Shown: positions 1,664-6,200 of the stretch, one piece after another
Numbering within the stretch: the stretch's first letter is position 1
Layout: each line of letters starts with the position of its first letter
Source of the DNA: Planctomycetaceae bacterium
GTDB lineage: Bacteria; Planctomycetota; Planctomycetia; Pirellulales; Pirellulaceae
Length of the DNA stretch: 6,200 nt
NCBI GenBank assembly: GCA_002685655.1
Contig: NYXM01000017.1
Span: 1-6,200, forward strand
Reading direction: 5' to 3'
Notes under the pieces: generated by a model
Database searches by the model: none
What the model was told of the DNA's origin: nothing
What the model saw: only the letters and a program-made list of their open reading frames with translations
Made by a program: the position numbers and the translations under genes

Positions 1664-3145
1664 ATGAAAACCGAGCCGCTTTATCCGGAGCCGCCCGCGG
1701 CGCTCGTTCGGCCGAGCGTCTTGCACGTTGTTGGTTACGTGGGACCTGGTGTGATCATTGCCTCGGTAACGATCGGCAGCGGGGAACTGGTCTATGCATC
1801 GCGGAGCGGGGCGATCTTTGGCTACGGCTTGCTGTGGTGCTTCTTTTACGCTGGACTGTTCAAAGCGATTCAGGTTTACACGGCGGCCCGGTTCATTACG
1901 CTGACTGGCGAACATCCGATTGAAACCTGGAAGCAGTTGCCCGGTCCGTGGTGCTGGTTTCCGCTGTTGATCGCCGTCCCCGCGGTGGCGTTGATGCCGA
2001 TTGCGTTTTCCGCGATTCCGGAGATCCTGGGTGGGTTCATTCACCGGCTCGTTGGGATGGAAATGTCGGGTCCTGGGATTGGCCCCTGGGGTTATCTGGA
2101 GTTCTGGATCAACTTCTGGAGTTCGCTGTTGCTGCTACTGTGCATGGCAATGGCACTGGGCTCCACCTACAAGGTCCTCGAACGCGTTTCGATCGTTGTG
2201 CTTGGCGGAATTGTGGTGTGCGTTGGGGCCGCGGTCGTCATAGTCGGGCCGGATCTGATCCAACTGCTCAACGGCATGTTGTTGCCCCGGCGACCGGTTT
2301 ATCCGGACTGGCTGTTGGAAGCACCCCAATATGCGAAAGAGTTTCAAGACCGCAATCCCTGGCTCGAGGTGTCGATCTACCTTGGTGCGGTCGGCGGCGG
2401 GGCGTACGACTACATCGGCTATATTGGAATGTTGCGCGAGAAGAAGTGGGGTCTGGCCGGGCGCCGTGTTGCAACTCGTGAAGAAATTGCCACGGCCGTT
2501 GCCGACAACACAGACTCGGCGCAAATCACCCTCACGAGAGCTAAGCAGTGGCGGCGAGCCCCGCTCTTCGACACCGTGGCCTCTTTCGCATTCGTAATCC
2601 TGGTTACCCTGCTGTTTGCGATTCTCGCCAAACTCGTACTGAACCGCGAAATGGCTGTACCGGCGAACAACGATCTACTCAACGAGCAGGAAACATTCTT
2701 AACCGCACTGCATCCCGAGCTACGGTGGGTCTACCGGTTGGGTGTGTTTCTCGCCTTCATCGGTACGCTCTATGGTGCGTTCGAGGTTTACCGACACACC
2801 TTTGTCGAAAGCGCGAGAGCCGTGGTACCAAAACTAATCACACCACAGCGCTTACCCGCGATCCGAATGGGAGTCGTGACCTATTGCCTTCTGGGCGGGC
2901 TGACAATGATGTGGCTGCCGGAACGCGTGGCGGGGACGATTATCAGCCGGATGACATTTGGGAGTATCATCAGCGGAGCGGCCTCTTGTGGGTTATGGTG
3001 CTTTGCTATGCTGTGGGCCGACCGCGTGCGATTGCCAGCCCCGTTAAGAATGAGTCTACCGATGCAAGTCCTGACCATCATTGCCGGTTTGGGCATGACG
3101 ATTCTGGGAGTTATTGTCACCGTTGTATACTTTCGACCGTCGTAG
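1664..3145 (+). CDS. Nramp-fold membrane transporter lacking the canonical metal-site motifs
   Basis: Inner-membrane secondary transporter of 493 residues with about 11 hydrophobic segments, near residues 21-45, 50-76, 96-125, 142-165, 172-195, 235-256, 303-327, 355-378, 400-417, 424-450 and 466-490. This count fits the Nramp (SLC11) version of the LeuT fold. The TM1 opening GPGVIIASVTI aligns without gaps to the Nramp GPxF... start, but the metal-binding DPGN that should follow reads GSGE (residues 38-41). The TM6 region reads GAVGGGAYDYIGYIG (241-255) with no MPxN-like motif, so the Met ligand is missing too. Automatic annotation would probably call this a divalent metal transporter, but those ligands are absent, so the substrate is unknown. 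Co-transcription with a sugar-acid-type enolase-superfamily gene 9 bases downstream allows an organic substrate, which is inference. ATG at 1664 is preferred over the adjoining TTG at 1661. No clear Shine-Dalgarno precedes either. Confidence 0.8.
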   Translation: MKTEPLYPEPPAALVRPSVLHVVGYVGPGVIIASVTIGSGELVYASRSGAIFGYGLLWCFFYAGLFKAIQVYTAARFITLTGEHPIETWKQLPGPWCWFPLLIAVPAVALMPIAFSAIPEILGGFIHRLVGMEMSGPGIGPWGYLEFWINFWSSLLLLLCMAMALGSTYKVLERVSIVVLGGIVVCVGAAVVIVGPDLIQLLNGMLLPRRPVYPDWLLEAPQYAKEFQDRNPWLEVSIYLGAVGGGAYDYIGYIGMLREKKWGLAGRRVATREEIATAVADNTDSAQITLTRAKQWRRAPLFDTVASFAFVILVTLLFAILAKLVLNREMAVPANNDLLNEQETFLTALHPELRWVYRLGVFLAFIGTLYGAFEVYRHTFVESARAVVPKLITPQRLPAIRMGVVTYCLLGGLTMMWLPERVAGTIISRMTFGSIISGAASCGLWCFAMLWADRVRLPAPLRMSLPMQVLTIIAGLGMTILGVIVTVVYFRPS

Positions 3146-3154: not shown

Positions 3155-4252
3155 ATGCAAGACGCAAGCGATCGCAGACTGAACCTTGCCGAATACAGAC
3201 TTCATCGCCTTCGCTTAGAACTCGCGAGGCCGATCGGTGATTCGCAGGTCGTCTTTACGGACCACTGGATGACCGTGTTGGAACTGACGACCGAAGATGG
3301 ACTGACGGGAGTTGGATTCGAATTGCAACAGGGAAAGCCGACGCCCGCGCTGGCCCAGTTGGAAGCGCAGTTCGAATACAACATGTGGCCGATGCTGCGG
3401 GGGTCGAGTCCTTTCGGGGAGGCATTACGAATCTCGCGACCCCGCGGTGGAAATATTAACGCGGGGACGTTGCCTCTGGCTGTCGAGACTGCTGCCTGGG
3501 ACCTGGTCGGCAAGGCCGCCGACCTTCCACTTTACCGGCTGCTTGGCGGGGCCAATCCCGAAGTCCCAGCCTACGGCAGCACGCTCGACTTTCACTTGAG
3601 CGACGACGAGTTTGTCAGCCGTCTGGGTGACTTCAAGAAGATGGGATTCCGCGCCATCAAGATCAAAGTGGGGCATCCCGACGTCGAATGGGATCTGAAG
3701 CGAATGCAGATGGCCACCGAAGTGATGGGACAGGATGCCGATCTGATGGTCGACGCGAATGAGGCCTGGTCGCCCAAAGAAGCGATCCGCCGCAGTCACA
3801 TTTACAACAACGCGGGCTTTGATGTCTATTGGATCGAGGACCCGATCACGCGAGAAGATTACAACGGCTACGCACAACTGCGCGGCGAAATACCGTTCTC
3901 TCGCGTCAACACGGGCGAGTATCTTGGCTTCCACGGCAAACGGCGGCTGCTCGAAGCCGGCGGCGTCGATGTGCTTAACGTCCACGGGTCGTTCGGGATG
4001 TCTCGAGCGGCTGCGCATCTGGCCGGCGACTACGGGATTCCCGTTTCGCTAGGCAACACCATCATGGAGATCGGAGTGCATTTGGCGGCCAGCCTGCCCG
4101 AAGTATTGTTTTTGGAATTCTCCGACTTAGTATGGAACAAAATCGCGAAAGAGCCCGTCAAGTTCGCCGACGGCAAAGCCATTGCGCCCGATCGCCCGGG
4201 CCATGGAATCGAACTCGACGGCGACGCGCTCGCGGAATACTCACACAATTAG
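3155..4252 (+). CDS. Enolase-superfamily protein, mandelate racemase type, atypical active site
   Basis: A 365-residue cytoplasmic protein with the usual two-part layout: N-terminal capping domain (about 10-130) and (beta/alpha)7-beta barrel (about 135-345). Family members take a proton from the carbon next to a carboxylate, using Mg2+ to stabilise the enolate, and commonly racemise or dehydrate sugar acids. Visible motifs are KIK (Lys169, Lys171), and metal ligands Asp200 in VDAN, Glu228 in WIEDP and Glu255 in NTGE. Glu321 in LEFSD matches the position of the mandelate racemase electrophilic Glu. In contrast, the Asp that normally follows QP at the end of strand 6 appears as Asn275 (LNVHGS), and the strand 7 His appears as Asn301 (SLGN). 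If this reading is right the His/Asp dyad is absent and chemistry would rely on the Lys face. The barrel C-terminal part resembles talarate/galactarate dehydratases more than the convergent neighbour does. Substrate unknown. It lies 9 bases after the transporter, probably in one operon. Confidence 0.85.
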   Translation: MQDASDRRLNLAEYRLHRLRLELARPIGDSQVVFTDHWMTVLELTTEDGLTGVGFELQQGKPTPALAQLEAQFEYNMWPMLRGSSPFGEALRISRPRGGNINAGTLPLAVETAAWDLVGKAADLPLYRLLGGANPEVPAYGSTLDFHLSDDEFVSRLGDFKKMGFRAIKIKVGHPDVEWDLKRMQMATEVMGQDADLMVDANEAWSPKEAIRRSHIYNNAGFDVYWIEDPITREDYNGYAQLRGEIPFSRVNTGEYLGFHGKRRLLEAGGVDVLNVHGSFGMSRAAAHLAGDYGIPVSLGNTIMEIGVHLAASLPEVLFLEFSDLVWNKIAKEPVKFADGKAIAPDRPGHGIELDGDALAEYSHN

Positions 4253-4271
4253 AGCGCCGGCCGATTCGCTC
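4252..4271. terminator. Weak stem-loop between convergent genes, possible shared terminator
   Basis: GAGCG (4252-4256) and CGCTC (4267-4271) form a 5-base-pair stem with a 10-base loop. The arms touch the stop codons of both convergent genes (TAG ending at 4252, and TGA read on the minus strand from 4272 to 4270). No T-run follows on either strand, so intrinsic termination is doubtful. It is recorded because it is the only structure in the 17-base gap. Confidence 0.2.
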
Positions 4272-5421
4272 ATTTGAGCTCCGTCTCTTGGACTCGAAAT
4301 GACTGCATTGCTGATCGGTCGACAACCACGCCCAGACCGGGACAGTTGGGTACATCAACGATGCCGCCCTCAATCCGAAGCGGTGTCTCGAACATCTCCT
4401 CGCGGAGTGGGTTGGGGCTGCGGTCGCATTCCAGTCGAAGCTCCGTCGCTTCGGCGCGTCCGGGCTCTCCGTAGGCCGTGGCCAAGAAATGCGTGGCTGC
4501 GGCCAGGTTCACCATCGTGCCCCAGGCGTGCGGCACGACATTGATTCCGTGCGAAGCAGCGACGGCGCGGATCTTCAACGCTTCGGACGGGCCGCCGCAA
4601 TAGGCCAAGTCGGGCTGGGCGAACTGTACTCCGCCGGACGCCAGCAGCGACTGGAATCCGTAGCGTGTCTGTTCACACTCGCCACCTGCCAATGGTACGC
4701 AGAGCTTCTCGTGAAGCTGCCGGTACAACTCGGGGTGCTCAGGGGAAACTGGTTCCTCGAACCAAGCGAAGTCCGCTTCATCGAGGGTCCGGCCAATGCG
4801 GATGGCTTCGGGTAAGTCGTAGGCATGATTCGCATCGGCCATCAGCGTCATCTCCGGCAGAGCCTGCCGCATCACTTCGATCAGCTTCCGATCGAAGCTG
4901 GCGTTCCTGCCGATCTTGATCTTCAGCGCACGAAAGCCTTGTTCGCAGTAGCCGCTGGCTTCGGCGATCAAGGCATCGATCAGCGCGGCGTCGGGCAAGT
5001 CGCGGAAGTACATTCCAGTCGCGTAACCATGCACCTGATCACGAAATCGTCCGCCCATCAATTCGCTAACGGGTTGGTTCAGTAGTTTCCCCTTCAGGTC
5101 CCACAAGGCCATGTCAATGCCCGAGATGGCCGCCATAAGTACGCCACGTCTTGCGAAATCGAGTGTCGTCTGCCACATATGATGCCAATGGACGTCGATC
5201 TGTCGCGGATCACGTCCCAACAACTTCGGAGCATAGACAGTGGCGACTGCCGCCTGATTCACCGCGGCTGGCCCAAAGCACTCGCCCCAACCAACCTCAC
5301 CCGTGTCGGCAATCATCTCAACCAACAACGACTCGCGGGCACCGCATCGCAACTGTGAGTAGGAAAACGGCTCATCCAACTCACAACGAAGTTGATGCGT
5401 GCGAATACATTCGATAGTCAT
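4270..5421 (-). CDS. D-galactarolactone cycloisomerase-like enolase-superfamily enzyme
   Basis: A 383-residue cytoplasmic enzyme of the mandelate racemase/muconate lactonizing group. Cap domain about 1-125, barrel about 130-350. The active site is complete: KIK (Lys167, Lys169), metal ligands Asp196 (ADAN), Glu222 (WFEEP) and Glu248 (AGGE), and the dyad Asp271 (QPD) with His298 (VPHAWGT). The N-terminal stretch (VGWGECFGPA at 43-52, GRDPRQ at 69-74, SGIDMALWDLKGK at 100-112) and the HGYATG segment recall the Agrobacterium D-galactarolactone cycloisomerase Gci. That enzyme opens galactaro- and glucaro-lactones to a 3-deoxy-2-keto-hexarate in uronic acid breakdown. The resemblance is from memory, so a sugar-acid dehydratase is a fair alternative. 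The ATG at 5421 has a good Shine-Dalgarno. It lies 31 bases downstream of the GH78-like gene on the same strand, probably co-transcribed, and converges on the other enolase-superfamily gene. Confidence 0.85.
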   Translation of the reverse strand: MTIECIRTHQLRCELDEPFSYSQLRCGARESLLVEMIADTGEVGWGECFGPAAVNQAAVATVYAPKLLGRDPRQIDVHWHHMWQTTLDFARRGVLMAAISGIDMALWDLKGKLLNQPVSELMGGRFRDQVHGYATGMYFRDLPDAALIDALIAEASGYCEQGFRALKIKIGRNASFDRKLIEVMRQALPEMTLMADANHAYDLPEAIRIGRTLDEADFAWFEEPVSPEHPELYRQLHEKLCVPLAGGECEQTRYGFQSLLASGGVQFAQPDLAYCGGPSEALKIRAVAASHGINVVPHAWGTMVNLAAATHFLATAYGEPGRAEATELRLECDRSPNPLREEMFETPLRIEGGIVDVPNCPGLGVVVDRSAMQSFRVQETELK

Positions 5422-5452: not shown

Positions 5453-6200
5453 TTATCGCTCAATATGCACGGTGTGTTTGCCTGACGGAAGGACGACAAA
5501 GCCGTTCTCTACCTGATCGGCGGTTGATGACTTGTTATCAATCGAGATGTGGTCATTGGACGGCGTTCCCAGGCTGGCAAGGTCGACTCTCAGTGTCGTG
5601 TGTGGTGGCGTTTGCAACGTGATGTTGATATCTGTCGGACTCACATCCCAAGCCACTTCGAGTAGGCCGGAAGGTGTCGGGATCGCACCATGACGCCGAT
5701 GAAGGCGGTCGGAATGGTGATAGCGCAGCACGATATCTCGGAGTCCGGGTTGTGTTGGCTCGATGCCCAGGATGTAACGTGAGAAGAGTCCCGGGAAGAA
5801 AGCGCTTTCGGTCTGAGCATCACTGCGCCCACTGGCGATCGGTCTGAAAGTCCCCTTGCGGCCACTGCCGTTGAGCCACCATTCTTCCCACAGCGTGCCA
5901 TTCGTCTGGGGCGACAACATGTGCGCGAAGCGCGCCCAGAGCAGATCCCAAGATTCGTCCGTGTAGCCCGCTTCGCAAAGCCCTGCGTGTAGGAAGTGAG
6001 ACATAGCGGGCGTGACCATAACGGTTCCAGAGGCGCGGCGAACAAACTGCCCACTCTCATTCGTGTGCAACTGCGCCGCGATGGCTTCCATCTGCTCCGG
6101 AGATGCGATCTTGAGCGCCATTGCCATGGCGTTAGCGTGCTCGCTGAATTGATCGGAACGTTCTCCGTCGACGAGTGCATCCGCAAAGAGCTGTCTCGCC
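5453..6200 (-). CDS. GH78 alpha-L-rhamnosidase-like protein, C-terminal part (5' end outside window)
   Basis: The reading frame is open from its TAA at 5453 to the right window edge, so about 248 C-terminal residues are visible and the start lies beyond the window. The internal ATG at 6127 is not the start, because family-like sequence (VDGERSDQFSEHANAMAMAL) runs through it. Two regions are seen. The first is the end of the (alpha/alpha)6 catalytic barrel, including HANA and TLWEEWW; its first Glu (codon 5885-5887) sits about where GH78 enzymes carry the catalytic base. The second is a C-terminal beta-sandwich beginning near RYILGIEPTQPGLRDIVL and continuing through AIPTPSGLLEVAW to the end. 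GH78 enzymes hydrolyse terminal alpha-L-rhamnose from glycosides and pectic or algal polysaccharides. The general acid and any signal peptide lie outside the window, so activity and location cannot be judged. Other (alpha/alpha)6 glycosidases are possible but fit less well. It is upstream in the same direction as the cycloisomerase-like gene. Confidence 0.78.
   Translation of the reverse strand, partial: ARQLFADALVDGERSDQFSEHANAMAMALKIASPEQMEAIAAQLHTNESGQFVRRASGTVMVTPAMSHFLHAGLCEAGYTDESWDLLWARFAHMLSPQTNGTLWEEWWLNGSGRKGTFRPIASGRSDAQTESAFFPGLFSRYILGIEPTQPGLRDIVLRYHHSDRLHRRHGAIPTPSGLLEVAWDVSPTDINITLQTPPHTTLRVDLASLGTPSNDHISIDNKSSTADQVENGFVVLPSGKHTVHIER

Follow-up and report, generated by a model that had tools for sequence, protein, structure and literature searches.

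The window, that is the whole stretch of 6,200 nucleotides analysed, contains the gene of an Nramp-related membrane protein, here called the carrier, followed by the gene of an enolase-superfamily enzyme, here called the partner (Table 1). The reading frame of the carrier is real, from ATG to stop; the TTG directly precedes this ATG, which is counted as residue 1. A span of 1724–2428, given for the protein in a first-pass annotation of the sequence, corresponds to residues 21–255. The carrier gene has a DEAD-box helicase gene on one side and the MR_MLE gene of the partner on the other. PF03746 (pxpA), the neighbour by which the PxpT/YcsG group was recognised, is absent from its flanking genes in the window.

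Table 1. Genes and residues of the carrier locus, with positions in the window
Feature	Position	Strand	Basis or remark
Carrier CDS, Nramp-related (PF01566) membrane protein, 493 aa from ATG	1664..3145	+	alternative TTG start at 1661
TM1 GSGE, residues 38–41, at the place of DPGN	1775..1786	+	profile alignments
Arg47	1802..1804	+	alignment
Lys67 (TM2), accompanying the acidic residue 41	1862..1864	+	
Glu120 (TM3), on the DMT1 glutamate equivalent to DraNramp Glu134	2021..2023	+	profile alignment
TM6 GAVGGGAYDYIG, residues 241–252, including Asp249	2384..2419	+	sequence; helix break 243–246 in the model
Partner CDS, enolase-superfamily (MR_MLE) enzyme, 365 aa, 9 bp downstream of the carrier	3155..4252	+	Pfam
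Second MR_MLE gene	4270..5421	-	
Alpha-L-rhamnosidase-like gene, C-terminal part	5453..6199	-	

The carrier exceeded the cut-off of the Pfam family Nramp, PF01566 (41.9 against 29.8 bits), in a match limited to residues 47–215 of the 494-aa reading and to positions 5–157 of the 357 in the profile (N-terminal half), and also that of the NCBIfam model Nramp_1, NF037982 (65.7 against 50). The curated MntH/NRAMP models were not reached (NF001923, 21.1 against 430; TIGR01197, 18.2 against 272.5). A phmmer search of the PDB gave two matches, one to an Nramp protein, which was weak, and the other unrelated; profile alignment to PDB proteins outperformed this single-sequence search. The closest named relatives found by homology search were Planctomycetota MAG proteins. 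One clade member, a protein of 482 aa from Gimesia alba (P0093) with the same sequence as the ORF of locus L142, appears in public databases under the name manganese transport protein MntH, which is probably wrong. For a homologue of 792 aa (P0050), a precomputed list gives PF13229 and PF05048 as additional Pfam domains. PF01566 is often expanded; the 24 genomes G001–G024 had 1–11 matches each (E ≤ 0.001), some of them parts of the same gene, and the TM1 motifs were of many kinds.

TM1 and TM6 motifs, charged residues and the predicted fold

The first-pass annotation had placed GSGE of TM1 where Nramp proteins have DPGN, and had described the replacement of the Met motif of TM6 by a glycine-rich stretch. 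Both observations held. In profile alignments to human DMT1, NRAMP1 and EleNRMT, GSGE falls ungapped on DPGN or DAGG, and residues 236–254, the TM6 region read, contain neither Met nor His. It is thereby confirmed that the carrier lacks the canonical metal ligands of both helices. DPGN, the TM1 motif of canonical Nramp/MntH proteins, is not found in the carrier, and neither is the NRMT combination of DxxG in TM1 with TxxA/T in TM6; GSGE and GAVGGG stand in their place. In the mutational scan of DraNramp reported by Berry 2026 (PMC13060092), Asp56 was strictly required for Mn import, and at Asn59 other polar residues or Gly were tolerated and Glu was not. GSGE has both disallowed states, the lost Asp56 and a Glu at 59. 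As had been proposed, metal transport by the known mechanism is thus unlikely, and we judge it very unlikely that the carrier is a metal transporter of the known type.

Conservation of GSGE in the clade had been named as a point to check. Among 121 proteins (the window and the best 120 of 508 homologues from the first homology search) 117 matched the regular expression, all of them ending in GE; of the other four, three have GNGE and one (P0085) begins too far in for the expression. With a second expression, which four proteins with LASVT escaped, E41 and K67 were present in 116 of 116 readable sequences of the 120 close homologues. Gly40, Glu41, Arg47, Lys67, Gly244, Gly245 and Tyr250 are invariant in a 72-row alignment of GSGE proteins down to 30% identity, and Asp249 reaches a conservation of at least 90% there. 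In the 80 genome loci, the conservation of GGGxDY is in part a product of the search, since the scan used GGGxDY or GPGxI[IV]ASVT; E41 lies outside both patterns. The conservation of the motif is far from chance. In a tree of 84 PF01566 proteins the window falls in a 17-row group nested in a 46-row group (44 GSGE, one GTGE, one GAGE), both with 100 SH-aLRT. The larger group is separate from the GPGT and GPGS rows, the PxpA-adjacent GPGF rows, the single DPGN row and the single DAGG (NRMT-like) row; the tree stems from a short search and has long branches, and only the clade itself is relied on.

The strongest companion of Glu41 is Lys67 in TM2, a residue on which the first-pass annotation was silent. 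Covariation was counted in 193 distinct PF01566 proteins from all loci, five with gaps being set aside. Where residue 41 is acidic (Asp or Glu), Lys or Arg is found at 67 in 149 of 151 proteins and Gln in the other two; where it is not, Lys is found in 2 of 37 (both with His41) and 35 are without it. The proteins are related, and these counts are not independent events. In canonical proteins, taken as relatives of one actinobacterial sequence, the residue matching 67 is Ala in all 119 in which DPGN was found (of 120). Counting from Asn59, position 67 would correspond to DraNramp 85, between Asn82 and Gln89, residues which have been named in polar gating networks (PMC10185341). Glu41 had been suggested as a possible ligand of another cation. 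This is now less likely, since Lys/Arg67 of TM2 accompanies Glu41; from the covariation, membership of a charge pair is a better reading of Glu41 than the role of a free ligand for metal.

The canonical glutamate of TM3 is present as Glu120, which is invariant in the 24 rows of alignment A1. The acid was kept in 17 of 17 rows of the close group with its sisters, and in the wider clade (27 rows) the position holds Lys in nine, Asp in three and other residues in 15. The register of TM3 is less sure than that of TM1, because a MAFFT alignment puts an Ile of the single canonical protein at the Glu120 position.

A confident structure model predicted a full-length match to the Nramp/LeuT fold. The first-pass annotation had asked for the two segments around residues 38–41 and 241–255 to be inspected in such a model, and they differed. 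The break of TM6 was retained, at 243–246. The TM1 helix (within 28–81) is unbroken across GSGE in the model, in which residues 31–40 have a mean pLDDT of only 74; a canonical control run with the same program showed a helix break at 47–49, with the helix stopping at the DPGN Asp. LAT carriers have been described with a carboxylate site at a glycine loop (PMC10998858). Carboxylate binding by a GSG loop as in those carriers is weakened by the model, since a TM1 unbroken across GSGE does not reproduce a glycine-loop site of the LAT type.

The partner enzyme and the gene neighbourhood

The partner matched PF13378 with 143.8 bits and PF02746 with 34.6 bits. In alignments clean of the second MR_MLE protein of the window, K169, K171, D200, E228 and E255 are invariant in 19 of 19 partner sequences, including rhizobial and haloarchaeal relatives at 43–48% identity. 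We take these to be the catalytic residues (KxK) and the three acidic metal ligands, the combination by which an MR_MLE protein was assigned to the enolase superfamily. Enolase-superfamily enzymes need a divalent metal, and known members mostly act on carboxylates. All scores of the partner against the NCBIfam equivalogs were far below the cut-offs, including those of the closest models, the L-talarate/galactarate and arabinonate dehydratases. The nearest solved structure is 2OZ8, named only 'Mll7089 protein'.

The plasmid matches to the partner comprised 1,356 records, with 25 among the matches listed and seven regions examined. Sugar (carbohydrate) ABC transporter genes lie around the relatives of the partner in five of the seven regions; of the remaining two, one is without ABC transporter genes within 8 kb and the other has no annotation. 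Several regions contain genes of the SDR, FAA hydrolase, Gfo/Idh or amidohydrolase type, and an Nramp gene is listed in none of the six annotated regions, the annotation of which is known to be incomplete. This context agrees with a pathway of sugar oxidation where the Nramp-related carrier would stand in for the sugar transporter.

The second MR_MLE gene of the window is convergent to the carrier and partner genes. Its product is arabinonate/galactonate/rhamnonate dehydratase-like, with all scores below the cut-offs, and the alpha-L-rhamnosidase-like gene lies 31 bp from it. Together these two genes may point to deoxysugar use. LUD/LutB lactate-utilisation genes were observed within about 4–6 kb of the non-adjacent partner enzyme and also near a haloarchaeal GSGE carrier (L280, L281, L217).

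Whether the clade repeatedly neighbours enolase-superfamily genes had been posed as a question, and the loci answer that it does. In 21 of 27 distinct close-clade loci with readable flanks, an ortholog of the partner (at least 605 bits) touches the carrier gene, 20 times downstream on the same strand and once divergently (L007); in L001, L005, L006, L008, L019 and L021 it is not adjacent. The 27 loci are distinct in the last 120 residues and include near-copies (L014/L200, L020/L177) as well as L194, the second fragment of the L049 genome; L003, L018 and L049, which end at or just after the carrier, were left out. Starts are those of the longest ORF, and the negative gaps in L017, L024 and L029 and the overlap in L007 reflect overlong starts. 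A first partner profile had included the second MR_MLE protein of the window, inflating the score of that protein (378 bits). No partner ortholog was flagged among the two called genes on either side of 20 other PF01566 paralogs; the paralog L226 adjoins a remote MR_MLE protein.

The same association was seen at the genome level. Among 170 genomes of one order, the ortholog (at least 647 bits) was found in 12 of the 13 with a close-clade carrier versus none of the 157 others (Fisher, 1.6e-17), with up to 12 candidates scored per genome, by which an ortholog could be missed. G456 is the exception, with a carrier and no ortholog; G500, without a carrier, has a weaker match of 458 bits. All of nine further carrier genomes hold the ortholog, including the non-adjacent cases L005, L006 and L008, and it was found in none of nine genomes whose known GSGE protein belongs to another clade. 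Chance adjacency is unlikely, since 12 carrier genomes had only 10–39 MR_MLE matches each. Five changes of the adjacency label are required on the 30-row carrier tree, and the genome and locus counts are for that reason not independent. Adjacency looks old, with a few separations, and carrier and partner are inherited together almost one-to-one. The earlier suggestion of an organic substrate, made from the enolase-superfamily neighbour, has thus gained strong genomic support.

Neighbours of other GSGE genes were scanned with one representative per recurrent cluster. A PF04199 cyclase gene lies directly upstream in 13 loci, and further close neighbours are PhyH, Ldh_2, aldehyde dehydrogenase (Aldedh), FAA hydrolase, ROK kinase and the AP_endonuc_2 TIM barrel. 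An Amidohydro_2 protein near GSGE genes had L-fucono-1,5-lactonase as its nearest model, below the cut-off. UxaA-type and MFS genes occur beside haloarchaeal GSGE genes, and SSF transporters and one P450 were also found. NIR_SIR and NTP_transferase genes each occur in 11 loci, on the opposite strand, and for cluster c5 (11 loci) no family was found at the thresholds used. The wider-clade score band has 50 loci, some of them fragments (L049, for example); 15 of the 50 have no co-directional neighbour within 100 bp. Some of the conserved neighbours of the wider clade (NIR_SIR, NTP_transferase) do not suggest sugar acids.

Possible cargo of the carrier

The best-supported function, which we consider probable from motifs and gene context, is that of an Nramp-related organic-anion carrier serving the enolase-superfamily enzyme. 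The protein would be an Nramp-related LeuT-fold protein from which metal binding is gone, and its cargo a small organic anion imported for the adjacent dehydratase or racemase; an aldonic (sugar) acid or the corresponding lactone is the most likely candidate. Transport itself, its inward direction and its coupling to protons or otherwise would all be part of this function. Glu41 and Lys67 would be in mutual contact, and the carboxylate of the substrate would meet Lys67/Arg47 or the glycine-rich segments of TM1 and TM6. A 6-deoxyaldonate such as L-rhamnonate or L-fuconate may be the cargo, which is a guess from scattered neighbours.

The main rival is a carrier of another divalent cation (Mg2+/Mn2+), with Glu41, Asp249 and Glu120 as ligands, that would supply metal to the adjacent enzyme. 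The linkage of carrier and enzyme could reflect such a supply, because of the metal requirement of the enolase superfamily, and acidic residues do persist in TM1, TM3 and TM6. In addition, EleNRMT moves Mg2+ with a rebuilt site (PMC8806188), the TM3 Glu coordinates Mn in BfraNramp (PMC12873925), and YcsG and MumT, Nramp relatives in metabolic operons, are reported Mn importers (PMC10448178, PMC5050338). However, Glu41 is accompanied by the invariant Lys67, the TM3 position holds Lys or another residue instead of the acid in 24 of 27 wider-clade rows, and the relatives of the enzyme adjoin sugar ABC transporters; the essential Asp56 and the untolerated Glu at 59 in DraNramp (PMC13060092) also argue against Mn. 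We therefore regard this rival as unlikely.

A neutral organic solute (a free sugar, lactone or glycoside fragment) as the cargo, or export of a pathway product, would suit the sugar-handling neighbours of GSGE genes (ROK, Gfo/Idh, AP_endonuc_2, ThuA) and the sugar ABC transporters beside the relatives of the enzyme elsewhere. It is also improbable in view of the conserved charges in TM1, TM2 and TM6 and of a partner from a superfamily acting mostly on carboxylates. That the protein is a receptor or otherwise does not transport, as the apparently unbroken TM1 of the model might suggest, we hold to be highly improbable, given the full-length LeuT-fold match with the TM6 break kept and the tight linkage to a catabolic-type enzyme.

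More tentatively, the organic-anion function may extend beyond this clade. The acid-plus-base half of PF01566 (GSGE, GTGE and GAGD with Lys/Arg67) could form a large, mislabelled branch of organic-acid carriers, in which a TM1–TM2 ion pair would replace the metal site and TM1, at least in the clade of the window, would no longer be unwound. If this broader reading were true, metal transport would be confined to a single branch of the Nramp fold family. Nramp is a textbook family of metal transporters, and databases call such proteins divalent metal or manganese transporters. An organic cargo of the present carrier, if right, would bear on the origin of metal selectivity in that fold, and metal-uptake inferences from PF01566 counts would be corrected. 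For one uncharacterised Nramp-related group there is now a concrete partner enzyme, a few charges to mutate and a named organism, which makes the cargo directly testable.

Relation to known Nramp proteins and other carriers

Ray 2026 describes the Nramp-related proteins as paraphyletic and without the metal and proton motifs, and all groups except 'NRMT-like' and 'G-motif 3' as entirely uncharacterised; the absence of canonical motifs in these groups is thus already known. Berry 2026 takes the proteins of its alignment as likely metal transporters. The use of 5-oxoproline is reported to depend on PxpT in C. glutamicum and on YcsG in B. subtilis (PMC13274462); for YcsG, a possible polar effect behind the result was raised by the authors (PMC10448178, PMC5050338). 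An Nramp relative with an organic substrate therefore has a precedent, and one with a metal has too. Among the papers listed, our literature searches gave no report of an Nramp protein tied to sugar acids or the enolase superfamily, which is not proof of absence. In the loci collected here, PxpA (PF03746) adjoins Nramp-related proteins with GPGT (L222) and GPGF (L111, L112, L118, L122, L125, L131, L137), from a flavobacterial genome and Pseudonocardiaceae relatives, in line with a 5-oxoproline role. A PDB sequence search with a PxpA-adjacent relative gave no match (the YcsG model 9a52 was not reached).

The carrier has 13–18% identity to canonical Nramp proteins in eight rows of the structural comparison. 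Canonical Nramp/SLC11 proteins (DraNramp, BfraNramp, DMT1) have DPGN in TM1, the motif MPH with its Met and His in TM6 and Ala at the position of residue 67 (119 of 119 readable), whereas the carrier has GSGE, neither TM6 residue, and Lys67. The Mg2+ transporter EleNRMT and its group are reported with DxxG and TxxA/T (PMC8806188), in contrast to GSGE and GAVGGG, and the single DAGG protein examined branches elsewhere and has Leu at 67 instead of Lys. PxpT, YcsG (MntG) and MumT were compared through the PxpA-adjacent relatives, which have GPGF with Asp67 (seven proteins) or GPGT (L222) and branch apart. APC/LAT carriers such as Asc1 (SLC7A10) were likened to the carrier by description; unlike them, the carrier has GSG followed by an acid, and its TM1 is predicted to run unbroken through GSG.
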